A stretch of DNA of 64,000 nucleotides, taken from Pseudomonadota bacterium. Its GTDB lineage: Bacteria; Pseudomonadota; Gammaproteobacteria; Burkholderiales; Rhodocyclaceae. The stretch covers positions 1-64,000 of the forward strand of contig JAGTRV010000006.1 of assembly GCA_018262245.1 (NCBI GenBank). Direction: 5' to 3'. The position numbers and the translations under genes were made by a program. Below, piece by piece: positions 1 through 28,533 of this stretch. Every line of letters starts with the position of its first letter. Positions within the stretch are counted from its first letter, which is position 1. The notes beneath the pieces are model-generated. The model had not been told where the DNA came from, did no database searches, and saw nothing but the letters and a program-made list of their open reading frames with translations.

Positions 1-2601
1 ATTGACCGCAGTATAGGTGCCGCTATGGCAGGTCGAACATTGCGCCGCCGTACCGCTGTGGTTCATCGCCGCCGGCTTGAACGCCACATAGTTGCCATGA
101 CAGCTGTCGCACTGCGCCGTCGTCGGAATATGCGAGGTCGGCTTGCCCAGTGCTGTCGATCCGTTGTGGCAGGTCGAACAGGAACCTGTCGCGGTCGCAC
201 TGTGTATGAATTTCGCCCCCGTCCAGGAGGTATAGCCCCCGGTATGACAGGTATCGCACTGCATGTTGGTCAGGACATGGGTCGTCGGCTTGGCCAAGGC
301 ATTGGCAAACAGGTAGCCCCCCCCGTGGCAGAGCGAGCAGTTACCCGGAGCGATCGGCCCCGTCGTACCGGTATGGCTCATCGTCGCCGGGCGGAAAGCA
401 TTGAAATTGCCGTGGCAGGTATCGCACTGCGCAGTCGTCGGGATGTGTGTCGTCGGCTTGCCCAAGGCCGTCGTGCCATTGTGGCAGGTCGAGCAGTTGC
501 CGGCGGCAGCGGGGCTGGCACTAGCATGGTTGAATACCTTGGTTGCCCAGCTGGCGGTCGAGGTGTGGCAGCTGTCGCACTGCGCCGTGGTGGAAACGTG
601 GCTGGCCGGCTTGATCTGCGCGTTAATCGCCACATACGCGCCACCATGACAGGTTGAGCAGGTTCCGGAATTAACCGTTGCCGCCGGCCCGGTCGTACCG
701 GTGTGATTCATCCGGGTTGGCGCAAAAGCGGTGAAATTGGTGTGGCACACGTCGCAGGCGGCGGTCGTCGGCAAGTGCGTTGCCGGCTTGCCGAGCGCAT
801 GGGTGCCATCGTGACAGCTGGTGGCGCAGGTGCCGCTACCGACCACCACGCCGGTATGCGAAAACGTCGTCGGTTTCCAGGCCGTCGTTCCGTGACAGGC
901 ATCGCAAGCCTGGGTGCCGGTTGGAATATGCGAAATCGGTCTGGCCTGCGCATTGACCGCCAGGTAGGCGCCACCATGGCAGGTAGCGCAGTTTCCGGCG
1001 GCGACCGGTCCGCTGGTACCCGCATGGCTCATGCTGGCCGGGGCGAATACCGAGAAACCAGTGTGGCAGGTCGAACATTGCGCCGTGGTCGGAATATGCG
1101 TTGTCGGCTTGGTCAGGGCATTGGCGTAAACATAAGCCCCACCGTGACACGAACGGCAATCCGTCAGGCCTGTGTGATCCATGGCCGCCGGACGGAATGA
1201 GGTGGTGTTCTTATGACAACTGGAGCATTGCGCCGTGGTCGGAATGTGGGTCGTCGGCATGCCCACGGCCGGGTTGTTGTTATGACAGCTCGAACAGTTG
1301 GTATCGGTGACCGCGTGATTCCAGGTCGCCGTCGCCCAGGTGCTGGTCGAACCGTGGCAGGTGTCGCACTGTGCGACGGTTGAACTGTGTGTAGCCGACT
1401 TGGTCTGGGCATTACTCGAAATGTACGTACCGCTGTGGCAAGTCGCGCAGTTTCCGGAGGCTGCCGGCCCCGTTGCGCCGGCGTGATTCATGCGCGCCGG
1501 GGCAAAAGCGCTAAAGCTGGTATGGCAGACGTCACACGAAGCGGTCGTTGGAATGTGAGCAGCGAATGCCTGCTTGCCCACCGCCGTGGTTCCATTGTGA
1601 CAGGTAGCGCAACGACCAGCCGCGGCCGGCGAGACGGTCGTGTGGTCAAACTTGGCGCCGAGCCAGGTAACGGTGGATTGATGGCAACCATCGCACTGGG
1701 CGCTCGTCGATACGTGAGTAGCCGGCTTGGCCAACGCGTTGACGGCGGTGTAACCGCCACTGTGGCAACTCGAACAGGCACCGCTTGTTCCCGAATGATC
1801 CATCCGCGCGCCAGCAAAGGACATGGTACTGGTATGACAGGTATCGCACTGCGCGGTGGTCGGAACATGACTCCTCGACTTGCCCACCGCACGCGAACCG
1901 TTGTGACAATCGGAACAGCGCCCGGTGACCGGCGGGCTTGCCACATGATCGAACACACTGGCAAACCAGGTGCTCGTTGAGGGGTGGCACTGGTCGCACT
2001 GTGCTGTCGTGGCGACGTGATTGGGCCCCTTGGTCTGCGCATTGGCAGAAACGAATGCCCCGTTGTGACACGAATTACACTGTCCGGCAGTACCGGCATG
2101 GTTCATGGCGGCGGGAGAAAACGCCGTCACGCTGGTGTGGCAACTGTTGCATGCCGCGTTGGTTGGCAGGTGAGTCACCGGCTTGGCGAGGCTGTTCGCC
2201 TCCGTGAAAATGCCGTTGTGGCAGCTGCTACAGGCGATCGTACTGACCACGTTATGGTCCATCCGCGCCGGCTGCCAGGCTATCGTGCCATGGCAGCTGT
2301 CGCAGGTCGCCGCAGCCGTCGGAATGTGCTTCAGCGACTTTCCTGGCGCACGCGTGCCGGCACCGGCATGACAAGTCGAACACACCTTCGGCGTTCCACG
2401 GAAAGTACCTGCGGTATGACACGACTCGCAGGGCACCATCTTGTGTGCGTTATCGAGAATGAAGCCCGTCTTCGCATGTTCGAAGACAAGACTCGGCACC
2501 GCCCCGCCCGATTCCGCCTGGCCAATAGCCTCACCCCACGCCCCCAACAGGAGCATGGCTAGCGGAACAAAAATCATCAGGAGGCGGCGCAGAAGATTCA
2601 T
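1..2601 (-). CDS. Giant multiheme c-type cytochrome, 3' truncated by window edge
   Basis: Reverse strand from ATG at 2601-2599 (MNLLRRLLMIFVPLAMLLLGAWGEAIGQAESGG..., signal-peptide-like). It stays open to position 1, so it is missing from the ORF track: any in-frame stop below about 2420 would have produced a listed ORF ending at 2601. I count about 31 in-frame CXXCH motifs plus one CX3CH, spaced roughly every 70-95 bp. Confidence 0.93.
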   Translation of the reverse strand, partial: MNLLRRLLMIFVPLAMLLLGAWGEAIGQAESGGAVPSLVFEHAKTGFILDNAHKMVPCESCHTAGTFRGTPKVCSTCHAGAGTRAPGKSLKHIPTAAATCDSCHGTIAWQPARMDHNVVSTIACSSCHNGIFTEANSLAKPVTHLPTNAACNSCHTSVTAFSPAAMNHAGTAGQCNSCHNGAFVSANAQTKGPNHVATTAQCDQCHPSTSTWFASVFDHVASPPVTGRCSDCHNGSRAVGKSRSHVPTTAQCDTCHTSTMSFAGARMDHSGTSGACSSCHSGGYTAVNALAKPATHVSTSAQCDGCHQSTVTWLGAKFDHTTVSPAAAGRCATCHNGTTAVGKQAFAAHIPTTASCDVCHTSFSAFAPARMNHAGATGPAASGNCATCHSGTYISSNAQTKSATHSSTVAQCDTCHGSTSTWATATWNHAVTDTNCSSCHNNNPAVGMPTTHIPTTAQCSSCHKNTTSFRPAAMDHTGLTDCRSCHGGAYVYANALTKPTTHIPTTAQCSTCHTGFSVFAPASMSHAGTSGPVAAGNCATCHGGAYLAVNAQARPISHIPTGTQACDACHGTTAWKPTTFSHTGVVVGSGTCATSCHDGTHALGKPATHLPTTAACDVCHTNFTAFAPTRMNHTGTTGPAATVNSGTCSTCHGGAYVAINAQIKPASHVSTTAQCDSCHTSTASWATKVFNHASASPAAAGNCSTCHNGTTALGKPTTHIPTTAQCDTCHGNFNAFRPATMSHTGTTGPIAPGNCSLCHGGGYLFANALAKPTTHVLTNMQCDTCHTGGYTSWTGAKFIHSATATGSCSTCHNGSTALGKPTSHIPTTAQCDSCHGNYVAFKPAAMNHSGTAAQCSTCHSGTYTAVN

Positions 2602-2724: not shown

Positions 2725-4560
2725 CTATCGTTTGACATATTTCCAGTTCGACGAGACATGGCAGGTCTCGCACTGGATGCCGAAAGCGCCGTTATGAACG
2801 TCCTCGCGTCCATGACAACTGAAGCAGGACATCGAGGGCTTCACCGACTTCGTCTTCGACTCCCTGTGACAGTCCCTGCACTCGACCTTGGCATGCCCGC
2901 CATCGAGCTTGAAGCGCGTGATCGAATGGTCGAAATCCCAGGACTTCCAGGTGCCGGTGGTGTGACAGGTCTCGCATTCCCTGCCGTAGCCGCCCTTGTG
3001 CTTGTCGTCCTTTTCGTGACAGCCGTAGCAGGTCAGCGGCGCATCCCTGAACGCTGGCGTCAGGTGGCATTTCTTGCACTCGACCTTGGCATGGCTGGCG
3101 GTCAGCGGGAAACGTGACTTGTTGTGATCGAAAGGCACGTCCTTCCATTGCCGTTCGTCGTGGCAGCTCGCGCACTTTTCACCAAGCTGGCCTTTGTGCT
3201 TGTCGTCCTTCTTGTGACAGGCAATGCAGGTTTGCTCCAGCTTGAGCTTGCTGTAGATCGGCCCTTTTTCCGGCAGATGGCAGGCATCACACTTGGTTTC
3301 GCGGTGCTTGCCCTTGAGCAGATACTTGGTTTCCTTGTCGTGGTTGAAAATGCTGCTCTTCCACTCCTTGGCCGTGTGGCAGGTGCCGCACTTGTCCCCG
3401 TAGCGCCCCTTGTGCCCCTTTTCGTCATCGTTCTTGCGATGGCAGGCCACACACTCCATTTCCAGCTTCAACTTGGCATTGGGACCACTGACGCCGCCCT
3501 TGTGGCAGGTGTCGCACTTGGCGTCCTTGTGCTTGTCGCGGAGCGGAAACTTGGTGTCGTCGTGATCGAAGTTCGAGTTCTTCCAGCCACGCTCGTTGTG
3601 GCAGCTCTCGCACTTTTCGCCCAGATTGCCGCGGTGGCCTTTGTCCTGATCGTCCTTCTTGTGGCAGGCGATGCACTTGGTCGGCAGTTTCTGCTGCTGA
3701 TAGAGCAAACCCCTTTCCGGCAGGTGGCAGGTGTTGCACTTGGCCTGGCGATGCTTGCCCTTCAGGGCGTAATGGGTGTCGTGATCATGATCGAAATCGA
3801 TTTCCTTCCAGCCCTTGTCGTTGTGACAGGACTCGCACTTGGTGCCGTAACGGCCCTTGTGCCCTTTTTCCTGATCGATCTTCTTGTGGCAGCCGTTACA
3901 GGTTAGCGGCGTCTGCTGGTAAGTCTTGTCGGCGTGGCACTCCTTGCACTTGACGTCGGCATGCTTGCCACCGATCAGCGAGAACTTGGTTTTTTCGTGG
4001 TCGAAACGGGTTTCCGTCCACTTCTTCTCGTTATGGCAGGTCTCGCACTTGGTCCCGAGATGCCCTTTGTGCCCTTTTTCCTGGTCGTCCTTCTTGTGGC
4101 AGTCGTTGCACAACTTGGGCGCCTGGCGGTACTTCAGCTTGGCCTGGTGGCAACTCTCGCACTTGCTTTCCTTGTGCGCGCCGAGCAGCTTGAAATCGGT
4201 CCGGGCGTGATCGAATTTTTTCTTGTCGAGCGGCGCGATATTGGCATTCCGCCCCTTGTGGTCGGTATGGCAATTGCGGCAATTATTGTCGTCCAGACGG
4301 CCATGCAGGCGCGACTTGGTGCGAATGTCGGCCGCCACGTCCTTGTGGCAATCGAGGCAAAGCTTGGTCTGGGCCGCCTTGTCGAAACGCTGATGACATT
4401 GCTTGCACTCCTGCTCGTACTTGGCGTGGCCCGAAATAAGCTCACCGGGCATCAGGACCTTTTCGATCGTTTGTGCCGCAGCTGCACCGGCAAACACCAG
4501 TGCAGCGCAAAGAATCAGATACCTGATGAACTGATCAATACATGTGGACCGCAATGACAT
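2725..4560 (-). CDS. 24-heme c-type cytochrome (cytochrome c3/c7-like repeats)
   Basis: Start trimmed to MSLRSTCIDQFIRYLILCAALVFAGAAAAQT (signal peptide). The first 119 codons of the track ORF overlap the upstream gene. 24 CXXCH motifs in repeated modules such as HKGHLGTKCETCHNEKKW...FDHEKTKFSL..GKHADVKCKECH. Confidence 0.92.
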   Translation of the reverse strand: MSLRSTCIDQFIRYLILCAALVFAGAAAAQTIEKVLMPGELISGHAKYEQECKQCHQRFDKAAQTKLCLDCHKDVAADIRTKSRLHGRLDDNNCRNCHTDHKGRNANIAPLDKKKFDHARTDFKLLGAHKESKCESCHQAKLKYRQAPKLCNDCHKKDDQEKGHKGHLGTKCETCHNEKKWTETRFDHEKTKFSLIGGKHADVKCKECHADKTYQQTPLTCNGCHKKIDQEKGHKGRYGTKCESCHNDKGWKEIDFDHDHDTHYALKGKHRQAKCNTCHLPERGLLYQQQKLPTKCIACHKKDDQDKGHRGNLGEKCESCHNERGWKNSNFDHDDTKFPLRDKHKDAKCDTCHKGGVSGPNAKLKLEMECVACHRKNDDEKGHKGRYGDKCGTCHTAKEWKSSIFNHDKETKYLLKGKHRETKCDACHLPEKGPIYSKLKLEQTCIACHKKDDKHKGQLGEKCASCHDERQWKDVPFDHNKSRFPLTASHAKVECKKCHLTPAFRDAPLTCYGCHEKDDKHKGGYGRECETCHTTGTWKSWDFDHSITRFKLDGGHAKVECRDCHRESKTKSVKPSMSCFSCHGREDVHNGAFGIQCETCHVSSNWKYVKR

Positions 4561-5446
4561 GCACGACTCCACTGAAAACCAACAGGTAAAGAAAAGGAAC
4601 GTGGACGACGTGCCAATAGGAAAAGAGCTTTTCCCAAACGCTGAGTTGGGATGCCTTGACCACCGAATCGAGATAGCGGTCGATGCGTTCGCGCGCCGAC
4701 TGGTAGCTCGCCACGAAGGCCTGGCGATCCCCGCCCTGCTTGCGCCACTGGCGACGCAGAACGCTCTTCGCATCATCGCGAACGGTCCGCGCCAGGCGGC
4801 GACTCCGCCAGCGCAGGGTGATGAAGCGCCATGCCCGGGCGCCCAGACCACCTTGCTTGTCGAAGGCGGCATCCTGGAAGGCACGCAACCGTGGCTCGAT
4901 ATCGGGGCGCAAGGCAAAAATGCTGCCCATCGTGTCCGCGCTGGCCTTCAGGTCGGCCGAAACATCCGCCAGTGTCAAATGCTGGCCGTAAAGCCCGCGA
5001 TGGATATGGCGATAGATGAAGCGCCCGACCACCCCGCTCAAGGCGACCAGCAACATGGCGTACAGCGCCATGGCGCCATTCAGTGAACCGGTGCGAAAGG
5101 TCGAGTGAAACAAGACCAGCAATGGCCCCGTAATCCCGGCGATCATGTGAAACTTGAACCAGCCCTCCATGCTCCCCACGCGATCAAGCCAGGCAATACG
5201 CTTGCGCAAGGGATAAAGCAAAAGGCTCAGCATCAACAAACCGCCCACCAAACCGAGGTTATAGCCGAAGTCCGAACCGGCGTCGTAGAGCCCCCCGGTC
5301 CGAACCAGCCACGCCAGGAACAAAACCAACGCAACCAGCACAGAAATAGAACTCCGCCAGGCACCGCGAAATACCTTTTCGCTGGGGGTCTTGGCTTCAC
5401 CCTCCATCGAAATCACTGTCATCGGGCCAAGCGAACTTGCTGTCAT
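4535..5446 (-). CDS. Membrane b-type cytochrome-like / ferric-reductase-like protein
   Basis: 303 aa, several hydrophobic segments and paired His (KFHMIAG..LFHSTF, RHIHRG, YWHVVH..VVHVIAVH). Its 3' end overlaps the start of the 24-heme cytochrome gene. Confidence 0.7.
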   Translation of the reverse strand: MTASSLGPMTVISMEGEAKTPSEKVFRGAWRSSISVLVALVLFLAWLVRTGGLYDAGSDFGYNLGLVGGLLMLSLLLYPLRKRIAWLDRVGSMEGWFKFHMIAGITGPLLVLFHSTFRTGSLNGAMALYAMLLVALSGVVGRFIYRHIHRGLYGQHLTLADVSADLKASADTMGSIFALRPDIEPRLRAFQDAAFDKQGGLGARAWRFITLRWRSRRLARTVRDDAKSVLRRQWRKQGGDRQAFVASYQSARERIDRYLDSVVKASQLSVWEKLFSYWHVVHVPFLYLLVFSGVVHVIAVHMY

Positions 5447-5608: not shown

Positions 5609-6574
5609 ATGAGCGACAAATCGAAGCAACCCGATCGATCGCTGCACCGTCCCGAAACCAGAGGCGCCCTCGGCGCCTTGCTGGGCTTTTTCGTCATCGC
5701 CGGCGCCGAATGTCAGCGGCTATGGCCGACCGGAACCAGCCTGATCTACCTCGCCATCTGCGCTCCGCTGCTGGCGATCTGGACAGCGCATCTGACCGGC
5801 TGGAAAGCGGCGCGCAACATGGCCGGAATGGCAATCGACCTGTCGATCTACACCCTCCTTGTCGCCAGCCTCGGGGCGCAATTCGGCTTCAGTCCGAACC
5901 CGAGTGGCACCCTGGCCTCGACGCTCCTCTTCTGGTCACCACTCATTGCGGCTTGGTGGGCCTGGCGATACCGCGCTTTCTCGATCAAGCTCTCGCTCAT
6001 ACTGGGGGTGTTCTTCGTCGTGCTGACCTGGCAGTTCGCAGATCAGCACCAACGTGTCCACGAGCACCTGATTCTCGCCTTGTGCCTGGTTTTCCTGATT
6101 CGCAAAATTGCCCGCCCGGCACCGAGCCCAAACTGGAGCTTTGATGCCCAGACCGGGCTCCCCTCACCGGAATGCTTCGAGGCGGAACTTGCCCACGTCG
6201 CAGCCATTTCCGACCGTTATCAGTTTCCGATGAGTCTGATCGGATGTCGTCTTCCGGCGGGTATTGGTGAGCAGATCACTGAACAGGCCGGTCGTTACGC
6301 AGTCGCCATCAGCGACCGCCTGCGCACGTCGGACACCGCCTGCCGATGGGACGAAACGACCTTCATGCTTCTGCTGCCGAACACCACGGAAATCCAGGCC
6401 GAGGCGGTCGCCCGGAGCATAATGGCGGCCACCGGAACGCCAAATATTGGAGAAGGCGCCCCTCTGGCTCCGGTCATCAGCATCATCCAGCACGCCGGCG
6501 GCGAAGATCCGATGAGCACGCTGACCGCACTTGAGCGCAAGCTATCGACCTTATCGGCATCATGTCCGACCTGA
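5609..6574 (+). CDS. Membrane protein with degenerate GGDEF-like domain
   Basis: Start trimmed to MSDKSKQPDRSLHRPE. N-terminal hydrophobic helices, then DAQTGLPSPECFEAEL... with RWDET at the GGDEF signature position. Confidence 0.65.
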   Translation: MSDKSKQPDRSLHRPETRGALGALLGFFVIAGAECQRLWPTGTSLIYLAICAPLLAIWTAHLTGWKAARNMAGMAIDLSIYTLLVASLGAQFGFSPNPSGTLASTLLFWSPLIAAWWAWRYRAFSIKLSLILGVFFVVLTWQFADQHQRVHEHLILALCLVFLIRKIARPAPSPNWSFDAQTGLPSPECFEAELAHVAAISDRYQFPMSLIGCRLPAGIGEQITEQAGRYAVAISDRLRTSDTACRWDETTFMLLLPNTTEIQAEAVARSIMAATGTPNIGEGAPLAPVISIIQHAGGEDPMSTLTALERKLSTLSASCPT

Positions 6575-7857
6575 TTTTTTACCTCGTCCCCGTCTTGTTG
6601 ATCCTGATTCCAGGCGTACTGCATGTCCGCGCCAAACAAAAGGATTCCGAAGTCCATCACGCCGTCCTCAAGGAAGCACAGGACTCCGGGCTGACCGAAC
6701 CGCCATCGCTCCACCCGGTGGTGGACCTCTCGATCTGCATGGGCTCCGGTGCCTGCGCTCGCGCCTGCCCCGAAAAAGCGCTGGGCGTCATCAAGGGAAA
6801 AGGCGTCCTGATCAATCCGTCGCATTGCATTGGCCATGGCGCCTGCGCCCCGGCCTGCCCGGTCGGTGCGATCAAACTGGTTTTCGGCACAGCCAAGCGC
6901 GGCATGGATATTCCGCAGGTCAATCCCGAATTCGAAACGAACGTTCCGGGCATTTTCATCGCAGGTGAACTGGGTGGCATGGGCCTAATCCGCAACGCCA
7001 TCCGCCAGGGAACCCAGGCCATCCGGACCATCGTGACCCGGCCGCGCAACCAGGCCGACTACGATGTACTTATCGTCGGCGCCGGTCCGGCCGGCATCGC
7101 CGCCTCGCTGGCAGCCAAGGAAGCCGGGCTGAAATACATCACCGTCGAGCAGGAGGATTCCCTGGGCGGAACGACCTATCACTATCCACGCAACAAACTG
7201 GTCATGACCGCCCCGATGAATCTGCCACTGATCGGCGAAATCAAGGTTCGCGAGATCAGCAAGGAAGAGCTGATGGAAATCTGGACCGGCGTTCTCGATA
7301 AAGCCACCCCCAATATCCGGTTCAGCGAGCGCATGGAGCAAATTACGCCGGAGGCAGAACGTTTTAGCGTGCGCACCAATAAAGCCACCTACAGCACGGC
7401 CAGCATTCTTCTCGCCATGGGCCGACGCGGCACGCCGCGCAAACTCGGCGCCAGGGGCGAGGAACACCCCAAGGTGGTCTATCGGCTGATCGAGTCGGAG
7501 CAGTATCGCGGCAAACACATTCTGGTGGTCGGCGGAGGCGACAGTGCGCTGGAAGCGGCGCTCGACATCAGCAACGAACCGGGCACGACCGTCACGCTGA
7601 GCTATCGCGGCAAGGCTTTCGATCGCGTCAAGCCGAAGAACCGCACGCGACTGGCCGAAGCCATTGCGGACGGACGCATCGAGCAGATCCTGGAGAGCAC
7701 GGTAGAGGAAATCCACCCTGAATCCGTCACCCTCAAGCTTGGGGAGACAACGATCGAGCGTCGCAACGAAGGGATCATCGTCTGCGCAGGCGGCGAACTG
7801 CCGACGCCGATGCTGAAGAAAATCGGCATCCAGGTCGATACGCGCCACGGCGAGTAA
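6562..7857 (+). CDS. 2x[4Fe-4S] ferredoxin-domain FAD/NAD(P)-binding oxidoreductase
   Basis: CMGSGACARACP and CIGHGACAPACP ferredoxin motifs, then VLIVGAGPAGIAASLAA and VVGGGDSALEAAL dinucleotide-binding motifs. Confidence 0.85.
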   Translation: MSDLIFYLVPVLLILIPGVLHVRAKQKDSEVHHAVLKEAQDSGLTEPPSLHPVVDLSICMGSGACARACPEKALGVIKGKGVLINPSHCIGHGACAPACPVGAIKLVFGTAKRGMDIPQVNPEFETNVPGIFIAGELGGMGLIRNAIRQGTQAIRTIVTRPRNQADYDVLIVGAGPAGIAASLAAKEAGLKYITVEQEDSLGGTTYHYPRNKLVMTAPMNLPLIGEIKVREISKEELMEIWTGVLDKATPNIRFSERMEQITPEAERFSVRTNKATYSTASILLAMGRRGTPRKLGARGEEHPKVVYRLIESEQYRGKHILVVGGGDSALEAALDISNEPGTTVTLSYRGKAFDRVKPKNRTRLAEAIADGRIEQILESTVEEIHPESVTLKLGETTIERRNEGIIVCAGGELPTPMLKKIGIQVDTRHGE

Positions 7858-7983: not shown

Positions 7984-8238
7984 ATGGCAACCACCGCTGT
8001 ACTGCCTCCCTTTCCGGAGGACTGGATGCAAACCTTGGCCGAGAAGCAAAGGCAAGGGCGTAGAATACTGCCTGAATGCCAACCGCCATATCTGACCATG
8101 GATGGACCGATTCTGGTTGATCGACGTTCTCACCAGGACCGGCGCAAGCAGTCTGCCCCCGCCCCTTCTGCCAGCACGAACCTTCCGGACGATTCGGTGT
8201 CTCCTCTAGCCATTGTCCACACAAGCATATCCCGATGA
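7984..8238 (+). CDS. Small hypothetical protein, 84 aa
   Basis: Strong RBS-like AGGAG upstream (gaggagcaggagaaaATG). Its stop overlaps the next start. Confidence 0.5.
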   Translation: MATTAVLPPFPEDWMQTLAEKQRQGRRILPECQPPYLTMDGPILVDRRSHQDRRKQSAPAPSASTNLPDDSVSPLAIVHTSISR

Positions 8239-9080
8239 CTGAATCACCGTTGCGATCGGTATTACTCTCAGCAATGCACCGCGTGCTGGCACCGGTTGTG
8301 CGCGTCATGCTGGCGCATGAAATCACACTGCCGATGGCCATCGAACTGTTGAAGCGCGTTTTCGTCGAAGTGGCCGAACGTGACTTCAAACTCGACAACA
8401 AGGCATCAACCGACAGCCGGATCAACCTGATTACCGGTGTGCACCGCAAAGACGTGAAACGCTTGCGTGAACTGCCGGGTCTCGAAGCCAACCTGCCGCC
8501 AAAAGTATCACTCAGTTCGCAAATCGTTGCCGCCTGGCTGACCGGCCGGCAATGGGTCGATGCCGACAACCAGCCACGACCGCTCTCCCGACTCGGCGGA
8601 AACCATGGCACAGCCTCTTTCGAAGCGCTCGTTGCCAGCATCAGCCAGGACATTCGCCCGCGATCGGTGCTCGATGAATGGCTGCGCCTCGGGGTCGTCA
8701 CCATCAACGAAGCGGATGAGGTCGTGCTCGTCAGCAACGCCTTCATTCCCAAAGACGGCCTGAAAGAAAAACTGGCCTACTACGGCCACAACCTTGGCGA
8801 CCATGCTGCCGCTGCGGCGGATAACGTACTCGCTCAAAACAGCCCATGGTTCGAACGCAGCGTGCACCACGATGGCCTGAGCGAGGAACAGGTCGAGCGA
8901 CTCCGCGGTCGCGCCTCGGAACTCGGCATGCAGGTCCTTACCACCCTCCATACGATGGCCGAGCAGGATCATGCGCTTGACGAAAACAAAGCGCCAGGCA
9001 GCACGGGACAATCCAAACGATTCACTTGTGGTGTCTATTTTTACAGCACCGACGACCAAAACGTAACGCCTGAAAAATGA
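8235..9080 (+). CDS. DUF6502-like protein
   Basis: 281 aa, MTESPLRSVLLSAMHRVLAPVVRVMLAHEITLPMAIELLKRVFVEVA. Overlapping starts and stops with both neighbours suggest an operon. Confidence 0.7.
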   Translation: MTESPLRSVLLSAMHRVLAPVVRVMLAHEITLPMAIELLKRVFVEVAERDFKLDNKASTDSRINLITGVHRKDVKRLRELPGLEANLPPKVSLSSQIVAAWLTGRQWVDADNQPRPLSRLGGNHGTASFEALVASISQDIRPRSVLDEWLRLGVVTINEADEVVLVSNAFIPKDGLKEKLAYYGHNLGDHAAAAADNVLAQNSPWFERSVHHDGLSEEQVERLRGRASELGMQVLTTLHTMAEQDHALDENKAPGSTGQSKRFTCGVYFYSTDDQNVTPEK

Positions 9081-10432
9081 CACGACTGCTGCTTTCGCTC
9101 CTCATCGCCGCCCTTCCTTTTACCGCGCAGGCCAACCCCTTTTGCGTCGACCCGGAGCAACCGGGCAACAACCATCTGGCGAGAAGCGGCATTGGCGGGA
9201 TCGGCGGCACCGGTGCACCAGCCCAGTCACGCCAGGCAAAAAACGGCGAATCCTCAACCGGCAGCGGAGGCATTGGTGGAACCGGTTCGCCGGCCGTCGG
9301 TGGTGGCATCGGGGGAACCGGCATGCCTGTCGCCGATGGATCGACTGTCGGCATCGTCGGGGTCATCAGCGGCTTCGCGTCGGTTTGCGTCAATGGTCTC
9401 GAAGTTCATTTTGAACAAGGCGTTCCGGTCAGCGAAAACGGTGAAACATCGGGCTCCGACAAGCTCGCTGTCGGCCAGGTCGTCTCCATTGAGGCAGCCA
9501 GTTCAGCCAAGGGGCTGCAAGCCAGAAACATCATGGTCCTGAACGCGCTGGAAGGCCCGATCACCCACCTGCCTCGCGGCGGCAAGGCAATCCAGGTCCT
9601 CGGCCAAACCGTGGCAATCAACCCCGGCACCCGAATCGGCGGACCGGGCCTGGCCGTTGGCCAGATGGTCAAGGTCAGCGGCTTGAGCGGTGCGAACGGC
9701 GCGCTGTTTGCGACGCGGATTCAGGCAGCCCCCGGCTTGAAGCATGCCAGCGTGCTGGGCCCCGTCGTTCAGTCCAAGATCCATGGCGTTACCCTGAGTG
9801 CGCCGCTGGCATCAAACTCGGCACTGGTCAAAGGCAAATGGACGGGCAGCGAACTGGTGCCAACGACGGTGGCGGCGGATCCGACCTATCGTTTCAAAGG
9901 CACGGCCAGCCGAATTCTGCTGGAAGGTCTGGTTCAGGGATCGAATGGCCGAGGCGCAATTCGATCGGGCGACCTTGATTTCTCGGTCACGACAGTTCAA
10001 GCAAAATCCCTGCAATTGAATCAGCGCATCTTTGTCGATTTGCAGGTTGGCAAGAATGGACACCTCGAGGTTGATCATCTTGAGGTGGCAAATGTCGAGG
10101 GGCGTAAAGCGTTGGATAGCGCCCGCGTTGATTCTCGCAACAGCACGATGTCCTCTCGGGAAATTGCCAATCTCGGAACCTTGACTGAAAAGATCGAGAA
10201 GGCTGAGAGGGTTGAGCCGATCGAGAAGGTTGAGAAAGTCGAGAAGGTTGAGAAAGTCGAGAGGGTTGAGCCGGTCGAGAAGGTCGAGAAGGTCGAGAAG
10301 GTCGAGAAGGTCGAGAAGGTCGAGAAGGTCGAGAAGGTCGAGAAGGTCGAGAAGGTCGAGAAAGTCGAGAAAGTCGAGAAGGTCGAGAAGGTCGAGAAGC
10401 CTTCACGAATCGAGCGCCCGGAGAGGCACTAG
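9077..10432 (+). CDS. Secreted DUF5666-like protein with C-terminal VEK repeat
   Basis: Signal peptide, IGGIGGTG repeats, repeated beta-type modules (GPITHLPRGGKAIQVLGQTVAINPGTRI), then a low-complexity (VEK)n tail. Confidence 0.7.
   Translation: MTRLLLSLLIAALPFTAQANPFCVDPEQPGNNHLARSGIGGIGGTGAPAQSRQAKNGESSTGSGGIGGTGSPAVGGGIGGTGMPVADGSTVGIVGVISGFASVCVNGLEVHFEQGVPVSENGETSGSDKLAVGQVVSIEAASSAKGLQARNIMVLNALEGPITHLPRGGKAIQVLGQTVAINPGTRIGGPGLAVGQMVKVSGLSGANGALFATRIQAAPGLKHASVLGPVVQSKIHGVTLSAPLASNSALVKGKWTGSELVPTTVAADPTYRFKGTASRILLEGLVQGSNGRGAIRSGDLDFSVTTVQAKSLQLNQRIFVDLQVGKNGHLEVDHLEVANVEGRKALDSARVDSRNSTMSSREIANLGTLTEKIEKAERVEPIEKVEKVEKVEKVERVEPVEKVEKVEKVEKVEKVEKVEKVEKVEKVEKVEKVEKVEKVEKPSRIERPERH
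10274..10399 (+). repeat. 9-bp coding tandem repeat (GTCGAGAAR), 14 copies
   Basis: 14 consecutive GTC GAG AAG/AAA units encoding (VEK)14. More degenerate copies lie upstream from about 10200. Confidence 0.95.
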
Positions 10433-10450
10433 TTCATCACGCGCTTACCC

Positions 10451-11275
10451 ATGATGAAGCACGCTGCATGGTTTGTCCGGGTTAAAATTCGTCGACACAA
10501 AAATTCCAAGCGCATTTTGAAAATCAAATTACCTCTTCTTCTCTGCCTGCTCCCCGCACTCAACGCCCACGCGGATGAGGCTTTCACATTCAGCTCCGGT
10601 GTCGACTACTCGACCGGCAAATATGGTGCTGCCGATAAAACCGAGACCCTGAGCATTCCTCTGAGCGCGAAATACGAGTTTTCCGACTGGACACTGCGCG
10701 CAACAATTCCGTACATAGAGTCCACGGGGCCATCCAGCGTATCGGGGAGTGGTGCAGACCGAATCACCCTGAATAACGGGCAAGGTTCTCGCCATAAAGC
10801 GACCGGATTTGGCGATTTCGTAGTCGCCGCCAGCAATAGTGTTTTGGCCAGCGGGCCATGGCTAATCGATGTTGGCGCAAAAGTGAAATTTGCGACTGCG
10901 GACAAAAATGAAGGGCTGGGTACCGGAGAAAATGACTACTCCATTCAAACCGAGATCTATCGGACATTAGATCGCCATACGGTCTTTGGCACCCTGGGAT
11001 ACAAAAAAATGGGGGATCCAGAGGGATTAAACCTGAAGAATCCCTGGTTCACATCGGCCGGGTGGTCGTTTCGAGCTGCTCAGCCAACAGCCGTCGGCCT
11101 CAGCTACGACTATCGTCAAAAAATAACCGAGAACGGCGCCCCTCTCCGTGAAGTGACTGGCTTTGTCACGCACAAACTGGACCAACATTGGAAGATTCAA
11201 GCTTACGCGGTCACCGGTTTCTCAAAAGCGAGTCCAGATCTTGGGGCCGGAATTTTCGTCTTTTATTTGCATTAA
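10451..11275 (+). CDS. Outer-membrane beta-barrel / transporter-like protein
   Basis: 274 aa with alternating beta-strand pattern (FTFSSGVDYSTGKYG..., SIPLSAKYEFSDWTLRATIPYI..., YDYRQKI) and a terminal aromatic-rich strand. Confidence 0.6.
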   Translation: MMKHAAWFVRVKIRRHKNSKRILKIKLPLLLCLLPALNAHADEAFTFSSGVDYSTGKYGAADKTETLSIPLSAKYEFSDWTLRATIPYIESTGPSSVSGSGADRITLNNGQGSRHKATGFGDFVVAASNSVLASGPWLIDVGAKVKFATADKNEGLGTGENDYSIQTEIYRTLDRHTVFGTLGYKKMGDPEGLNLKNPWFTSAGWSFRAAQPTAVGLSYDYRQKITENGAPLREVTGFVTHKLDQHWKIQAYAVTGFSKASPDLGAGIFVFYLH

Positions 11276-11286
11276 CAAACACGAGC

Positions 11287-11808
11287 CTACCGCGCACCCA
11301 ACCGGAAAGCCTGGGTAATCAGATTTGTTGCCTCCGGGCTATCCCAGTTGCGTGAGCCATAAATCCTCTTGATCACCCGCCCATCTGCATCAACCAAAAC
11401 GGTCAACGGCAATCGATCAGCGCGCAGAATTTTTTCCAGTACCAGATTTCGATCTATGTAATTCCGAAAAGTAATTCCGGCGCGCTTCAGGTAGGCGAGG
11501 GCCGCCGAACGATCATCATCGGTGGAGATGCCAATGATATTGATCTGCTTTCCGTCATAGCGCTTGGCCAACCTCTCCAGCGACCCCATTTCCTCTCGGC
11601 AAGGCCCACACCAGCTCGCCCAGACATTAATCAGCAATGGCTTGCCGCGAAATTGGGCGAGTTTTCCCGCGCCACTGGCCAAGTCGTTTAATGCGGCATC
11701 CGCCAACTGTTCGTCAATGACCTGCACTGAAGCATTCGCAGAATAGGCATTCTCAAAGAACACCAGCCCGGCAATACACATTAGAAATACCCGGAACATC
11801 TTGATCAT
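11287..11808 (-). CDS. TlpA/ResA-like thioredoxin-fold protein
   Basis: Redox motif NVWASWCGPCREE after a signal peptide. Start set to MIKMFRVFLMCIAGLVFF. Confidence 0.85.
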   Translation of the reverse strand: MIKMFRVFLMCIAGLVFFENAYSANASVQVIDEQLADAALNDLASGAGKLAQFRGKPLLINVWASWCGPCREEMGSLERLAKRYDGKQINIIGISTDDDRSAALAYLKRAGITFRNYIDRNLVLEKILRADRLPLTVLVDADGRVIKRIYGSRNWDSPEATNLITQAFRLGAR

Positions 11809-11986
11809 CAGCGCCCCCCCCAATACCTTCATTCGGCTGAATTTTAATCGATGCCGAACAGTTCCCCTTTCAATTGCCGGTCAGAAAAACACTTTCCCCA
11901 AGTGCACGGGTGCGACCAAACTGCCCGGCAGGCAAGGATTTCCGGGTGGATTTTCCGGGATAATTTGCCCATCTGCTATCACTGGC

Positions 11987-13063
11987 CTAGCTGAGTCGCC
12001 TTAGCGCCGCCTCGACCAGCCCGCCCATTTCGGAAGTGGAAACCAAACGGTCACCGGCCTGGAAAATATCCCTGGTCCGCGCGCCATTCGTCAATACCGT
12101 CTGGACCGCTGATTCGATCGCATCGGCCATGTCCGGCCGGCCCAAGCTATAGCGGAACATCATCGCTGCCGACAGAATCATGCCCAAGGGATTGGCAACT
12201 CCCTGCCCTGCAATGTCCGGCGCTGAACCATGGCAAGGCTCATACATCCCTTTGTCCTCGACATTGAGCGAGGCCGAAGGCAGCATGCCGATCGAACCGG
12301 TCAGCATCGCCGCTTCGTCCGAGAGAATGTCACCGAACATGTTGCCGGTGAGCAGGACATCAAACTGTTTCGGGTTCTTGACCAGTTGCATGGCCGCGTT
12401 GTCGACCAGCATGTGATCGAGAGTGACATCCGGGAAACGTTCGCCGACCTTGGTCACCACGTCGCGCCAGAGCTGCATGCACTCCAGCACATTCATCTTG
12501 TCGACGGACATCACCTTGCCACTCCGTTGGCGGGCAATCCTGAACGCCATTTCGGCGATCAGTGCGATCTCGGATTCGGAGTACTCCATGGTGTTGTAAC
12601 CGACGCGTTCGAACCCGGAGGTCCGTATCCCGCGCGGCTGGCCAAAATAGATATCGCCCGTCAGTTCCCGGACGATCATCATGTCGAGTCCGCTGACCAC
12701 CTCCGGGCGCAGCGTCGAGGCATTGGCCAGTTCCGGATAGACCTTGATCGGACGCAGATTGGCATTGAGCCCGAGATATTTCCTGATCCCCAGCAAACCG
12801 CGCTCGGGGCGCGACTCGGCCGGCAGTTTGTCCCACTTCGGGCCGCCGACGGCACCGAGCAGGATGGCATCGGCTTCGTCAGCCAGCCTCAAGGTTTCGA
12901 CCGGCAAGGGGCGCCCCGTCTGATCGTAGGCGGCGCCACCCAACAGCCCGTACTCATATTCGATTTTCAGGCCATGGATATCCTTCAGGGCATCGATCAC
13001 CCTGACGGCCTCGGCACAAATTTCGACACCGATGCCGTCCCCGGGAATTACACAGATTTTCAT
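11987..13063 (-). CDS. leuB: 3-isopropylmalate dehydrogenase
   Basis: [101 protein letters not shown]. Confidence 0.93.
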
Positions 13064-13078
13064 TTCACAACTCACAGC

Positions 13079-13105
13079 AAAAAAACGGGGGGCCTGAAGC
13101 CCCCC
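13079..13105 (-). terminator. Rho-independent terminator of the DUF1329 gene/operon
   Basis: Minus strand GGGGGGC-TTCAG-GCCCCCC followed by GTTTTTTT. Confidence 0.88.
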
Positions 13106-13183
13106 TAAGGTTGGAGGAGAGTCGAACGCAGAACGACTCTCAACCGCAGAGACACCCGTTATCGGGGTACAGGACTATCTGGA

Positions 13184-14500
13184 TCAGTCACCGCCGCGCA
13201 GGTTCTGCACCTGGAAGAGTCCCGGCGGATTCTTCTTCGGATCGACCTGGCCCTTGAACTGACCGGTGGTGCAGTGCTTGGACTGCAGGTCGACCATGGA
13301 GAAGGCGTCATCGATACCGATACCAGCCCCCTTGTTGACCGGCAGGTGATGATCGGGGTGCGACTTGCCGACCATGAAGACCTTCCACAACTCGCCCTTG
13401 CGGTCGTAGATTTCGTTGGCACCGTTCAGGTTCTGCAACTGGACGTCCATGTAGAAGACGCGCTTGCTGACCGGATGGTTGGTATTGACCGGCGCCGCTT
13501 CGAGCACATAGACCTTGCGCAGCTGCCAGGTGCCTTCGGAGAAGCACTTGCCCTGACCGCCCATGTCGACATACTTGTAGCCATCGGCTTCAGCGGGCAT
13601 GTCGGTCGCCAACTTCAGCTCGTCGTGATTCCACATGGGCAACAGGACGTTCTTGGTGCCCTTGTAGGTCCACTTCATGTCGGAGACTCGGCCGTTGTAG
13701 CCCTCGAAGTCTTCGATCATCAGGTCGGAGCCGAGGAAGGCATCGGTCACCTGGCCCTGGGCCAGGCGGCGGACACGGCGCTGGAAGCCGAGGTAGAGGT
13801 AGGCATCGTCCAGCTTGGCATCATCCTCGAAGCGCTGGATCAGCAACTGGGTGTTCTTCAGGTCGCTGGGCTCGTGGGCCTTGGTGTAGATGGCGCGGAA
13901 AATGCCCGACGGGTTCGGCGTGAATTCCGGAATCGGCGCATCCTTGGTCCGGTGCATGAAGTTCAGGAAGTGGAAGTCCCACTTGATGGTCTTTTCCACC
14001 TGCCCGGTCTGCATGTTGCGGTACTTCCAGTAGAACGGCGAAATGACCGCGCCGTCGCCCCAGTTAACACCGTACTTGTAGTTCCAGGCCAGCTTCTCGC
14101 CAGCGCGTGCATCCTTGGCATCAGGCTCCTCCGGGAACGGGCGGCCGGCGACATAGCCGGTGATCATGTCACCCGGCTTGGCACCCAGCTTGGTCTTGTT
14201 CAGGTTGGCCTTGGTCGCGTCGGTGTAGTTCTTGTTGATGGCGAACTGCGTCGTGGCGCCGACCTTCATTTCAAACAGGCCATCCTTGATCAGCTTGTAC
14301 ACACCGGCGCCCAGCACATCCTTGAACTGGTCGGCGTTGGCCTTGTTGATCACGGTTCCGGCGGTCAGCCCCGGAAAGCTCGGCATGCCGGCCTTGTACG
14401 GGTTGAACGAGTTGTCGACATCCGCTTCGGTCGCGGCTTGCGCCACGCCCATCACACCGGCCGCCATCAGCGGCAGCATGGCAATCAAATGCTTTTTCAT
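13184..14500 (-). CDS. DUF1329 family protein
   Basis: 438 aa with signal peptide. Sequence (VYVLEA, RVFYMDVQL, DAFLGSDLMIEDFEGYNGRV) and its position next to the DUF1302 gene fit this family. Confidence 0.85.
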   Translation of the reverse strand: MKKHLIAMLPLMAAGVMGVAQAATEADVDNSFNPYKAGMPSFPGLTAGTVINKANADQFKDVLGAGVYKLIKDGLFEMKVGATTQFAINKNYTDATKANLNKTKLGAKPGDMITGYVAGRPFPEEPDAKDARAGEKLAWNYKYGVNWGDGAVISPFYWKYRNMQTGQVEKTIKWDFHFLNFMHRTKDAPIPEFTPNPSGIFRAIYTKAHEPSDLKNTQLLIQRFEDDAKLDDAYLYLGFQRRVRRLAQGQVTDAFLGSDLMIEDFEGYNGRVSDMKWTYKGTKNVLLPMWNHDELKLATDMPAEADGYKYVDMGGQGKCFSEGTWQLRKVYVLEAAPVNTNHPVSKRVFYMDVQLQNLNGANEIYDRKGELWKVFMVGKSHPDHHLPVNKGAGIGIDDAFSMVDLQSKHCTTGQFKGQVDPKKNPPGLFQVQNLRGGD

Positions 14501-14522
14501 ACTCTTTGTCTCCTCTGTTGGA

Positions 14523-16496
14523 TCAGAACTTGTAATTCAGGCGCAGGAAAATGTCGTTTTCCTTGAACGCGGCACCAATCGGGCCGGCGCGGAAGCGACC
14601 AAGGGGTTCCATGCCACCAAAACCACGCGAATAAGACGTCATCGCGTTGGCATCGCCGTTTGGCGCGGTAAATGGCGCAAACGGATTACAGGCACGGCAG
14701 TCATCGAAATTCCAGTGATCGCGCCCATCAGCCAGCTTGTAGTTGGCGCCAATGGTGATCTTCAGGTCGTTCGTGTAGTTCCACTCCACCTGCGGTGCAA
14801 TCGCCGTTGCTTTGGCGCGGAAGTCATGTGCCAGGATCAGTTGTGGGCTGACCGTACCGTTACGCAGGAAGCCCTTGATCAGCAGGGTGCCGATGAAGTT
14901 GTTTTCCCAATCCGGCATGCCGACCGGGCCGTACTGTTCCTGCTTCCACTCGTGGTTGAAGATATGCTGGTAGAACAACTGAGCCGAGATCAGGGTGGCC
15001 GAAGTTTCGCTGATGAACGGGATGAAGGTCGGACGGTCGACACCGATGACCGCACGGAAAACGTCGTTCTTGGAGTACAGCTGCTCACGCGAGGTGTTGG
15101 AGAACTCTTCACCCTGCGTATAGGCCGCTTCCATGCGAACGGCCGCACCGGCTGCCGGGATCTGGAAGTCCATCGAGCCACCAACCAGGTTGACACGTGG
15201 GAATTCCATGTCGAACGAGATCAGATACGGCCAGGCATTCTGGTATTGGCCGGTAAACGAGTTCGTTGCACGCTTCCCACCGTGCAACGACGGCAGTTGT
15301 GAACGATAGGTCAGCGCATTCAGCGAGAAGGACAGACCATCCATGGTCACACCTTCATACTTGGCACCCAGCTGGGTATTGGAGAGACTCCAGTCCGGCA
15401 GGTTCACGTCCTTCAGACCGATCTGACCAGGACCGAAGTTGGTGGCCAGCAAGGTACCCGGTCCAACGTTGGCGAAGTTGGCCACCGTACCGCCGTTGTC
15501 CCACAGGTTGGCCATGCCACGGAAGAAGCAGCCAGCATCGAGAATGACGTTTGGCGTGCCGCACTGACCGAGATTGTTCGGACGGAACTTGTCGAAGTTC
15601 CAGACGATCTGGAAGTTGCGATCCTGCATCCAGTCGCTGGCCCCCATGCGGTATTCCGCCTGGGCGATCCACATCGGGATGCGGATATCGGACAGTTCGT
15701 CGTAAATATTGTTGCGCGAGAAATCGACCGGGTTGATGACGTCGAGCACGCGGAACAGGTCGGTACGGCCCCAGACCACCTGCTGCTTACCGATCTTGAC
15801 GAAGAGATCCTTGCCGTCACCCAGGTTGAACGTCTTCTTGGCATACAGCTCGCGAATGAAGTCGAGACGGCTGTTGAATTCCGGCATTTCGAGCTCGGAC
15901 AGCTTCTTGTTTCCATAACCGCCGAAATCGCGACAGCCACGGCTGTCGATGTCGCAGGGACGTACCGGTACCGCGAAGCCAACGCCGCCGTCGGTGGCAT
16001 GCCAGCGATCACCGAGAACACGCAAGCCGCTGTTCGGATTATTGGCCCCATAGGAATCGACAAAAGCGTTACCGGCAGCCCCGGGGTAACCCAAGCCTGA
16101 AACCAGCGTATGGGTTACGGGACCAGCACCCCAAGGGCTGGTCACCAAACCGGCTGGCGTTGTCGACTGCGTCGTGATCGACCCACCCGCATCCTTGCCG
16201 TATTCGCTGCTGTTCATGCGATAAACGCCATCCCAGCTACCGCGCAGGATGCTGTGGATACCCCAGCCATCGCCGACCTTCTTGTCGAGTTCGGCCTGCA
16301 TGGTGTTGCGGAACTTGGCCAGACCGGTGTGCTCGCGCCTGACGGTGTGGTTTTCGTAAGTCAGATCGACCTGCCAGGGCGAGGATTCCTCGCCCATTGA
16401 AGGAAGTTCGTTGCCCCACGCCTGCGTTGCGAAGGAGGCGGTGAGCGCCACCGCCAGCAGCGACAGGCGCCTTCCCGTATTCAAGTTTGTCTCCAT
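14523..16496 (-). CDS. DUF1302 family outer-membrane protein
   Basis: 657 aa: LFVKIGKQQVVWGRTDLFRVLDVINPVDFSRN, GSMDFQIPAAGAAVRMEAAYTQGEEF, terminal FLRLNYKF. Confidence 0.87.
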   Translation of the reverse strand: METNLNTGRRLSLLAVALTASFATQAWGNELPSMGEESSPWQVDLTYENHTVRREHTGLAKFRNTMQAELDKKVGDGWGIHSILRGSWDGVYRMNSSEYGKDAGGSITTQSTTPAGLVTSPWGAGPVTHTLVSGLGYPGAAGNAFVDSYGANNPNSGLRVLGDRWHATDGGVGFAVPVRPCDIDSRGCRDFGGYGNKKLSELEMPEFNSRLDFIRELYAKKTFNLGDGKDLFVKIGKQQVVWGRTDLFRVLDVINPVDFSRNNIYDELSDIRIPMWIAQAEYRMGASDWMQDRNFQIVWNFDKFRPNNLGQCGTPNVILDAGCFFRGMANLWDNGGTVANFANVGPGTLLATNFGPGQIGLKDVNLPDWSLSNTQLGAKYEGVTMDGLSFSLNALTYRSQLPSLHGGKRATNSFTGQYQNAWPYLISFDMEFPRVNLVGGSMDFQIPAAGAAVRMEAAYTQGEEFSNTSREQLYSKNDVFRAVIGVDRPTFIPFISETSATLISAQLFYQHIFNHEWKQEQYGPVGMPDWENNFIGTLLIKGFLRNGTVSPQLILAHDFRAKATAIAPQVEWNYTNDLKITIGANYKLADGRDHWNFDDCRACNPFAPFTAPNGDANAMTSYSRGFGGMEPLGRFRAGPIGAAFKENDIFLRLNYKF

Positions 16497-20396: not shown

Positions 20397-21185
20397 TCAG
20401 GCGAACTTGACGCTGGTGCTACCCAGCGACTGGATGCGCAGATTGACGTGATCACCTGCACTGACAGCAACTGCCTCGGTGACGCCGCCGGAAAGAATCA
20501 TCGTGCCGGCTGGAATCTCTTCGCCACGGGCGCCAAGATGGTTGGCCAGCATGGCGATGGCTGCCGCCGGATGGCCGAGTACGGCAGCGCCGGCGCCGAT
20601 GGCAACGGGTTCGCCGTTCTTTTCCATGACCACGCCCAGGGTACGCAGATCGAGACCGGCCACCGGCGTCATCTGGCCACCGAGCACGAAGCGCGAGGAC
20701 GAGCAGTTGTCGGCAATGACGCTCTTCAGGTCGAACTTGAAATCGCGGTAGCGCGAATCGATGATCTCGATGCCGGGCATGATGAAATCAGTCGCGGCCA
20801 GCACGGCACCGATATGACAGCCCGGGCCTTTCAGCGCCTTTTTCAGCACAAAGACGATTTCCGGCTCGACCTTCGGGTGGATCAGTTCCTTGATCTTGAT
20901 TTCACCGCCATCGGCGACACTGAAGTAATCGACAAGGAAGCCGAAACACGGGGTTTCGACGCCCATCTGCTTCATCTTGGCATGCGAAGTCAGGCCGGCT
21001 TTCAGGCCAACGACGCGATTGCCGCGGGCCAGTTTGCGGCGCAGAATTTCGTTCTGGATGGCGTAGGCGTCATCCCAGTCCATCTCGGGATGGGCGTCGG
21101 TGATCTTGACCACATCATGGGCTTGCAGCTCGGCGTTTTCGAGCAACTCGGCCAGTTGGCCGATGGTTTGTTGATTCAGTTTCAT
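20397..21185 (-). CDS. dmpH: 4-oxalocrotonate decarboxylase
   Basis: 262 aa hydratase/decarboxylase family ([37 protein letters not shown]), in meta-operon context. Confidence 0.88.
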
Positions 21186-22213
21186 TTCAGCAATCCCCGT
21201 TCGCGTGCCATCGTGATGGCGGTATCTTCAATCATGTCTTCCTGCCCGCCGACCATGCCGCGCCGGCCCAGCTCGACCAGGATGTCGCGGGCCGGCACGC
21301 CGTACTTGGCCGAAGCACGCTTGGCAAACAGCAGGAAGGAGCCATAGACGCCGGCATAACCGAGCGTCAGCGCATCGCGGTCGATGCGGATCGGGAAGTC
21401 CATCATCGGCACGACCAGGTCTTCGGCGACGTCGGTGATCTTGGCGACATCCACCCCGGTCTCGATGCCCATCAGGCTGCACACGGCAATCAGCACTTCC
21501 ATCGGCGTGTTGCCGGCCCCGGCACCCAGACCCGCAGCCGCGGCGTCGATGCGGTTGGCCCCGACTTCGATGGCAGCGATCGAGTTGGCGACGCCCATGG
21601 CCAGGTTGTGGTGGCCATGGAAACCAAGTTCGGTTTCCGGCTTCAGCGCGGCACGCACGGCAGACAGGCGTTCCTTGACGCCTTCCGGCAGCAGGTGGCC
21701 GGCCGAGTCGGTGACGTAGATACAGTTGGCCCCGTAGGACTCCATCAGTTTGGCTTGCTTGACCAGGCCTTCGGCACTGTTCATGTGGGCCATCATCAGG
21801 AAACCGACGGTGTCCATGTCCAGCTTGCGGGCCATGGTGATGTGTTGTTCGGAGACGTCAGCCTCAGTACAGTGGGTGGCGACCCGGATGGTATTGACGC
21901 CGAGGTCACGCGCCATCTTCAGGTGATCGACAGTCCCGATACCCGGCAGCAGCAGGGCGGAGACCTTGGCGTTCTTCATCTTCGGGATGACGGCGCCGAG
22001 ATACTCTTCATCGGTATGGGCCGGGAAGCCGTAGTTGACCGAGGAACCACCGAGGCCATCGCCGTGGGTGACTTCGATCAGCGGCACGCCGGCGGCGTCG
22101 AGGCCGGTGGCGATGGCGGTCATCTGGTCGAGGGTCATCAGGTGACGCTTGGGATGCATGCCGTCACGCAGGGTCATGTCGTGGACGGTGACTTTTTTGC
22201 CTTTGAGGGTCAT
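21182..22213 (-). CDS. dmpG: 4-hydroxy-2-oxovalerate aldolase
   Basis: 343 aa ([59 protein letters not shown]). Confidence 0.95.
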
Positions 22214-22233
22214 TTGTCTTTTCTCCTTATTCC

Positions 22234-23148
22234 TTAGGCGTGCACCGGCTCAAGCTTGAGCGTGCCCTTGATCATTTCTTCGGCGAACATTTCGGCGGTG
22301 CGGGCACCGGCGGCGGTCATGATGTCGAGGTTGCCGGCGTAGGTCGGCAGGAAGTCGCCGAGACCGGTGACTTCCATGTAGACGGAGACGCGGTTGCCGT
22401 CGAAGACCGGGCCGTTGACCAGGCGGTAGCCCGGCACGTACTTCTGGACTTCCTTGATCATGGCGTGGATGGATTCGGTGATCTTTTCCTGGTCCGGTGC
22501 GGTTTCGGTCAGGCAGTGCACGGTGTCGCGCATGACGAGCGGCGGTTCGGCCGGGTTGATGATGATGATGGCCTTGCCCTTCTTGGCGCCGCCAACCTTT
22601 TCGACGGCACCAGCGGTGGTGCGGGTGAATTCGTCGATGTTCTTGCGGGTGCCGGGGCCGGCGCTCTTCGAAGACACCGTGGCGACGATTTCGCCGTAGG
22701 CGACCGGCTGGACGCGGGAAACGGCAGCGACCATCGGAATGGTGGCCTGGCCACCGCAGGTGACCATGTTGACGTTCATCTCACGGCGACCAACGTGTTC
22801 CTTCAGATTGACCGGCGGCACGCAGAACGGGCCGATGGCGGCGGGGGTCAGGTCGATCATCAGGACGCCGAGGGCATTCAGCTTGCGGCTGTTCTCGGCA
22901 TGGACGTAGGCCGAGGTGGCATCGAAGGCGATCTGAACATTGTCTTCAAGGACGTGGGGCAGGAAACCATCGACCCCGGTGGCGCAGGTCTTCAGGCCCA
23001 TATCGGCGGCACGCTTGAGGCCTTCGGATTCAGGATCGATGCCGATCATCCAGACCGGTTCAAGGAAGGGACTGCGCTTCAGCTTGTAGAGCAGGTCGGT
23101 GCCGATATTGCCCGGGCCAATCAGGGCGCATTTGATTTTTTGGGTCAT
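22234..23148 (-). CDS. dmpF: Acetaldehyde dehydrogenase (acylating)
   Basis: Start trimmed to [23 protein letters not shown]. Has [20 protein letters not shown]. Confidence 0.95.
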
Positions 23149-23173
23149 CAATATTTTCCTTATTGATCGTTGT

Positions 23174-23968
23174 TCAGCAAATGGTGGAAACGATGCCGCC
23201 CTCGACGCGCAGCGCGGCACCGGTCGTCGCAGCCGCTCTCGCGCTGCAGACGTAGGCGACCAGCGCAGCCACTTCGGCCGGATCGATCATGCGTTTGATA
23301 ATTGAGGTCGGGCGCCCTTCGGCGAAGAAACGGCGTTCCATTTCATCGAGGCTGATGCCGGACTCGGCGGCCAGCTTGCCGAAGAATTCGCCAACACCTT
23401 CCGAGCGCGTCGGGCCGGGCAGCACGGCATTGACCGTGACACCGGTGCCGGCGCAGCTCTGGGCCAGACCGCGCGACACGGCGAGCTGGGCCGACTTGGT
23501 CATGCCGTAATGGACCATCTCGCCCGGCGTGTTGATGCCGGATTCGCTGGAGATGAACACGATACGTCCCCAGTTGGCCGCCTTCATGGCCGGCAGGTAA
23601 TGACGGGCCAGACGGACGCCGCTCATCACGTTGACGTCGAAAAAGCGCTGCCATTCGCTGTCAGGGATGGCGTCGAAGGGCACCGGATCGAAGATGCCGA
23701 GGTTGTTGACCAGAATGTCGGCCTGCGGACAGGCGTCGAACAGGAACTGGCAACCTTCCGCCGTGGACAAATCAGCCACCACGCCCTGTACGTCGGCGCC
23801 AGCCACCAGCGAACGCAGGCGGCCAAGCGCCGCATCGACACTTTTCTGGCTGCGACCGTTGATCACCACCCGGGCGCCTTCGCGAGCCAGCTCGGTGGCG
23901 ATGGCAAAGCCGATGCCGACGGTCGATCCGGAAACTACCGCAGTCTTCGATTTGATCTGGAAGTCCAT
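23174..23968 (-). CDS. Short-chain dehydrogenase/reductase
   Basis: 264 aa from [24 protein letters not shown]. Canonical YGMTK catalytic motif. Confidence 0.88.
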
Positions 23969-23982
23969 GTCAGGCTGCCGGC

Positions 23983-24765: not shown

Positions 24766-24787
24766 GATGGTTTCTCGTGCTCTTTCG

Positions 24788-25612: not shown

Positions 25613-25624
25613 GTTCGGATCGCC

Positions 25625-27079: not shown

Positions 27080-27101
27080 TCTGTCCTCTGTGGTTTTGTT
27101 G

Positions 27102-28456: not shown

Positions 28457-28533
28457 TTGTCTGCTCCTCTTTTTTAGATTTGATAACTGCACAAAATCCA
28501 TGCAATCGATTTAACGCAACGATATTTACAACC

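Follow-up and report, generated by a model that had tools for sequence, protein, structure and literature searches.

A giant multihaem cytochrome gene cut by a contig end, a probable outer subunit of a porin-cytochrome complex of the PCC3 type in Azonexus

At the left edge of the stretch of DNA analysed here (64,000 nt, hereafter the window), a long reverse-strand frame is crowded with haem-binding motifs. This raises the questions of whether the frame is a real gene, how far it continues beyond the edge, and with which partners its product works. According to our analysis, the product is very probably the outer, extracellular subunit of an Azonexus porin-cytochrome complex of the PCC3 type, likely serving as an extracellular electron wire. 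This kind of system is already known, while the size of this member is extreme.

A cytochrome gene interrupted by the assembly

The frame is stop-free from the ATG at 2601 to base 1 (867 codons), and the in-frame stop codon between 1 and 2601 that the earlier note had named as evidence against its claim is absent. Its motif tally (31 CXXCH plus one CX3CH) was reproduced, and the density it gave as about one motif per 27 residues was measured at 27.1 residues per motif. Shuffled sequences of the same composition contained a mean of 0.35 and a maximum of 3 CXXCH. The 31 in 867 codons are thus far beyond chance and the gene is real, with cytochrome c7 and c3 repeats (Pfam) all along the window frame. 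A gene caller that drops partial genes would omit it, as had been foreseen. The gene consists of the following parts:

1..2601, reverse strand: N-terminal 867 codons of the giant multihaem cytochrome, cut by the contig end
2521..2601, reverse strand: predicted Sec signal sequence (residues 1-27, by eye), in which no lipobox Cys was seen
2251..2490, reverse strand: conserved head (residues 38-117), FxHxxTGFxL...CESCH...F[RK]GTPxxCxxCH
C76:12039-13094 (L023:12039-13094), reverse strand: C-terminal 351 codons, found by a search of the same genome

The genome assembly comprises 379 contigs, and the window corresponds to C353:1-64000 of a contig of 65,152 nt. The frame does leave the window, as previously described, but the window starts at base 1 of the contig, so that the gene was cut by the assembly and not by the window alone, and the present assembly holds no sequence further left by which it could be extended. 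The piece on contig C76 contains 12 CXXCH and one CX4CH (13 motifs) and a stop codon, followed by an 841-residue protein. Both pieces are collinear with an intact gene in a relative of the same genus (L024, genome G011; 2284 residues, 85 motifs), the window piece aligning to residues 33-899 (70%) and the C76 piece to residues 1934-2284 (77%). Judged by this relative, about 1034 residues with 40 motifs lie unassembled between them. No direct overlap was found between the ends of C353 and C76, and a gap of roughly 1000 residues therefore stays. For the full protein we expect about 2250 residues and about 85 haems, an estimate taken from L024 in a genus whose other species vary in length.

Two contigs that stop inside a repeat-rich gene, with the middle absent from the assembly, might also point to a chimaeric frame or the remnant of a decaying gene. 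We consider this extremely unlikely, as neither piece is interrupted by a stop codon and the haem ligands are all kept. In comparison with L024, the closest full-length relative, retention is 93 of 93 for the Cys/Cys/His residues of the haem motifs and 33 of 34 for the other His, with 65% identity at other residues. Together with a dN/dS of about 0.08 (a rough value, as dS is near saturation), this argues for strong purifying selection on the giant cytochrome. Intact long versions are moreover present in several relatives, including the single-contig genomes L133 and L134 (63 motifs). In another one-contig genome (G035, locus L026), a frameshift, either genuine or caused by a sequencing error, separates the N-terminus (L026:8855-9319) from the rest (9175-15273). 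The case shows how repeat genes of this type break assemblies, here in the repeat-rich middle, and vanish from gene counts.

Repeat architecture and size range

The giant cytochrome is a chain of one-haem units of about 26-27 residues, with motifs mostly every 23-29 residues and a T+S+A+G content of 43-48%. Each member carries 1.00-1.13 extra His per motif, mostly seven residues ahead of the first Cys, from which we infer bis-His ligation of nearly all haems. The head is nearly invariant among 18 relatives and resembles the repeat units found in the periplasmic cytochrome (C353:3994-4221 matches with E 8e-10). At the other end, a CX4CH site is located 20-21 residues from the terminus in all nine inspected members having a C-terminus, and behind it come [KR]P[LT]G and a Trp region at the very end. 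A C-terminal sorting or anchor domain was considered and rejected, since none was seen and the tail consists of this conserved site. When run on the first 480 residues together with 18 relatives, AlphaFold2 gave no usable cytochrome model (pLDDT 40); residues 2-27 form a hydrophobic helix in the model of the N-terminal part. A profile of the cytochrome found its best matches among solved structures in extracellular cytochromes of the MtrC/MtrF/OmcA type, those to MtrC/MtrF being weak.

In 80 loci collected around the inner-membrane gene described below, the outer cytochrome spans 10 to 107 motifs. The largest is L121:3603-11946 (JAGTRU010000010.1) with 106 CXXCH and one CX4CH in one frame (2789 codons from stop to stop, 2781 from the ATG), and that of L037 has 91. 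The longest internal exact repeat of the L121 gene measures 68 bases, which makes a duplication created by the assembler unlikely. Published maxima that we found are 85 haem motifs for PCC3 (PMC5566968) and 86 each for an ANME-2c S-layer cytochrome (PMC9012536) and a cytochrome of Desulfuromonas acetexigens (PMC12133095); the 107 motifs of L121 exceed these, and given our partial coverage of the literature no record is claimed.

The four-haem stretches of the window piece are all nearest to the L024 gene, in register save one. In L052, 25 of 29 such stretches are nearest to others in the same protein, as are 20 of 52 in L121, and L025 contains a 380-base exact internal repeat with copies 1050 bases apart. 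According to these patterns, the middle expands and is homogenised by internal recombination while head and tail stay fixed, a process that accounts for the length differences among species.

Gene partners and membership in PCC3

PCC3 was defined by its four parts and their order (He et al., 2017; PMC5566968) and later surveyed by Hoover et al. (2023; PMC10734462). The genes relevant here, on the window unless another locus is given, are:

2725..4560, reverse strand: periplasmic multihaem cytochrome, 611 residues, 24 CXXCH, signal sequence
4535..5446, reverse strand: PCC3 inner-membrane protein, 303 residues, two WX3HX13H plus SGXXG, predicted two b haems
L023:9523-12048: porin-like protein, 841 residues, after the giant cytochrome on C76
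5105..6574, forward strand: GGDEF-domain gene between the inner-membrane and flavoprotein genes, true start probably further in
6562..7857, forward strand: membrane-anchored ferredoxin-like FAD/NAD(P) oxidoreductase, two CX5CX3C[PA], proposed extra PCC3 partner
L023:8255-9472, reverse strand: CcmI/CycH-like cytochrome c maturation gene directly behind the PCC3 porin
L129:1655-2971, forward strand: second CcmI/CycH-like gene, directly behind a membrane multihaem cytochrome gene on contig C253

The inner-membrane protein agrees with the published motif definition (He et al., 2017; PMC5566968), which comprises about 300 residues, SGXXG and two WX3HX13H, and the key residues of these motifs are invariant in seven homologues. 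By simple hydropathy, four of its segments exceed the threshold and the first His-motif helix falls below it, compared with five transmembrane helices in PCC3. The periplasmic cytochrome, whose start was picked by analogy with relatives, has 24 motifs next to a PCC3 median of 21. The giant cytochrome itself displays the many motifs, low residue-to-haem ratio and T/S/A/G-rich composition of PCC3 extracellular cytochromes. Beside it, as in PCC3, lies the gene of a predicted large outer-membrane beta-barrel. The AlphaFold2 model of this porin (pLDDT 77) has a domain of strands at its N-terminus, a helical stretch resembling TPRs and, between residues 361 and 840, about 22 long strands, and it matches outer-membrane barrels in Foldseek with modest TM-scores; a profile search against PDB sequences returned TPR-type matches only. 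Assignment of the porin to the MtrB_PioB family was rejected, as it has no such Pfam match. In the whole genome, which is 84% complete, a search with PF11854 (MtrB/PioB) found nothing.

The gene order, running from the inner-membrane protein through the 24-haem periplasmic cytochrome and the giant cytochrome to the porin, is that of PCC3. The four genes are split over two contigs here and contiguous in L024, L025, L026 and L027, and in intact relatives the porin gene follows directly downstream of the giant cytochrome. It is these neighbouring genes that place the giant cytochrome, for which the earlier note gave no system, in PCC3. The same cluster occurs in many relatives, with strong matches in 6 of 37 genomes belonging to the genus and, this genome included, in 17 of 300 sampled across the order. 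Such a patchy distribution is consistent with transfer and loss of the cluster.

In 68 of the 80 loci, no more than 3 kb separates the flavoprotein gene from the inner-membrane gene. The flavoprotein gene lies outside the core PCC3 parts of both main papers (PMC5566968, PMC10734462), and He et al. reported that another redox protein often accompanies related porin-less clusters (PMC5566968). Several of our loci with the flavoprotein contain an 18-21-haem cytochrome and no porin match. Two Fe-S motifs, each of three Cys instead of four, are present in all 67 flavoproteins checked, and a search for four-Cys [4Fe-4S] motifs in them was empty for this reason.

The GGDEF-domain gene is kept at the same place in close relatives, and in C76, L024-L027 and L121 the gene behind the porin is CcmI/CycH-like. 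Near the flavoprotein gene, a DUF6502 gene (8235-9080) precedes a gene (9077-10432, forward strand) whose DUF5666 product has a long EKVEKV repeat at its end; both families are also found near the flavoprotein gene in L027. Elsewhere in the window, inspection of the translations by eye revealed apparently two aromatic meta-cleavage gene sets (21182-36464 and 55606-60127) with two catechol 2,3-dioxygenase-like and two aldehyde dehydrogenase genes, accompanied by phenol hydroxylase-like subunits and a sigma-54-type regulator, and an apparent nosRZDFY nitrous oxide reductase operon (44203-51456, reverse strand).

Proposed electron path and comparison with known systems

We posit that the most likely electron path connects the di-haem b protein of the inner membrane with the extracellular wire by way of the 24-haem periplasmic wire and the porin. 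The haems would all be bis-His-ligated and packed as one conducting chain that may link the cell to a mineral, an electrode, humic matter or another cell. Export, haem loading, geometry and partner contacts are deduced from sequence, and a role of PCC3 in extracellular electron exchange is likely. As to direction, electron uptake is weakly and only slightly favoured, because the genome has RuBisCO, which is no more than suggestive for the direction of flow, and because most discussion of PCC3 concerns Fe(II) oxidisers. Transcripts of Sideroxydans do not firmly tie PCC3 to Fe(II) oxidation. Both PCC3 clusters of Sideroxydans lithotrophicus ES-1 were down on Fe(II) (PMC8788666). In CL21, expression of the clusters did not depend on iron oxidation, and a significant rise in iron-oxidising cells was confined to one gene, that for the inner-membrane protein of copy 2 (PMC12442390).

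The range from 10 to 107 haems with the same partners looks as if capacity, and not a fixed distance, had been selected, and the haem chain might then be mainly a surface capacitor that is filled and emptied between redox zones, a storage function also proposed by Hoover et al. (2023; PMC10734462). We regard storage in place of conduction as rather unlikely, given that a porin and a periplasmic wire invariably accompany the cytochrome, partners for which a pure storage function would have no use, and that regular spacing with one extra His per haem suits a chain. The two functions are compatible, and we retain conduction as the main reading.

A further possibility concerns the inner end of the path, which might be NAD(P)H and not the quinone pool if the flavoprotein and the di-haem b protein formed a split NAD(P)H oxidase-like unit that couples the haem wires to cytoplasmic NAD(P)(H). 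We hold this to be possible, if on the unlikely side. The linkage of the two genes, which extends to several porin-less loci, points in this direction, as do the N-terminal membrane helix of the flavoprotein (57 of 66 members), its two constant three-Cys motifs, the absence of a thioredoxin-reductase CXXC from its FAD/NAD(P) domain, and the resemblance of the inner-membrane protein to the membrane domains of ferric reductases and NOX (He et al., 2017; PMC5566968). Against it, the flavoprotein is missing from eight loci with room on both sides, the two genes are mostly divergent and not co-transcribed, and each Fe-S motif has only three Cys, NAD(P) binding and clusters both being predictions. 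Combining these elements, PCC3 could be a quinone-independent path in which such a unit feeds, or is fed by, far-reaching wires of 24 and up to 107 haems whose reach is set by repeat recombination; as a whole we judge this quite unlikely. The definition of PCC3 comes from comparing genomes. Among the points raised here, the conserved flavoprotein neighbour most deserves testing. Azonexus and its neighbours hold the largest versions found here and, with partners unchanged, present chains of many natural lengths, by which both conduction versus storage and the role of the flavoprotein become testable.

The closest known counterpart of the cluster is published PCC3 (PMC5566968, PMC10734462), which has the same four components in the same order, the same inner-membrane motifs, a T/S/A/G-rich low-complexity cytochrome and, in common with the giant cytochrome, a low residue-to-haem ratio. 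It differs in size, with published medians of 34 and a maximum of 85 motifs against about 85 expected here and 107 in a relative; the PCC3 of Gallionellaceae has 10-35. In addition to the core definition, the cluster features the conserved flavoprotein and, near Azonexus, the CcmI-like neighbours. MtrCAB and MtoAB of Shewanella and Sideroxydans likewise combine a porin with periplasmic and extracellular multihaem cytochromes, which in those systems have ten haems each in contrast to 24 and about 85 here. Comparable haem numbers are known from the ANME-2c S-layer cytochrome (PMC9012536), which differs by its S-layer and pectin-lyase-like domains, and from the cytochrome of Desulfuromonas acetexigens (PMC12133095), which is described as not in a complex.
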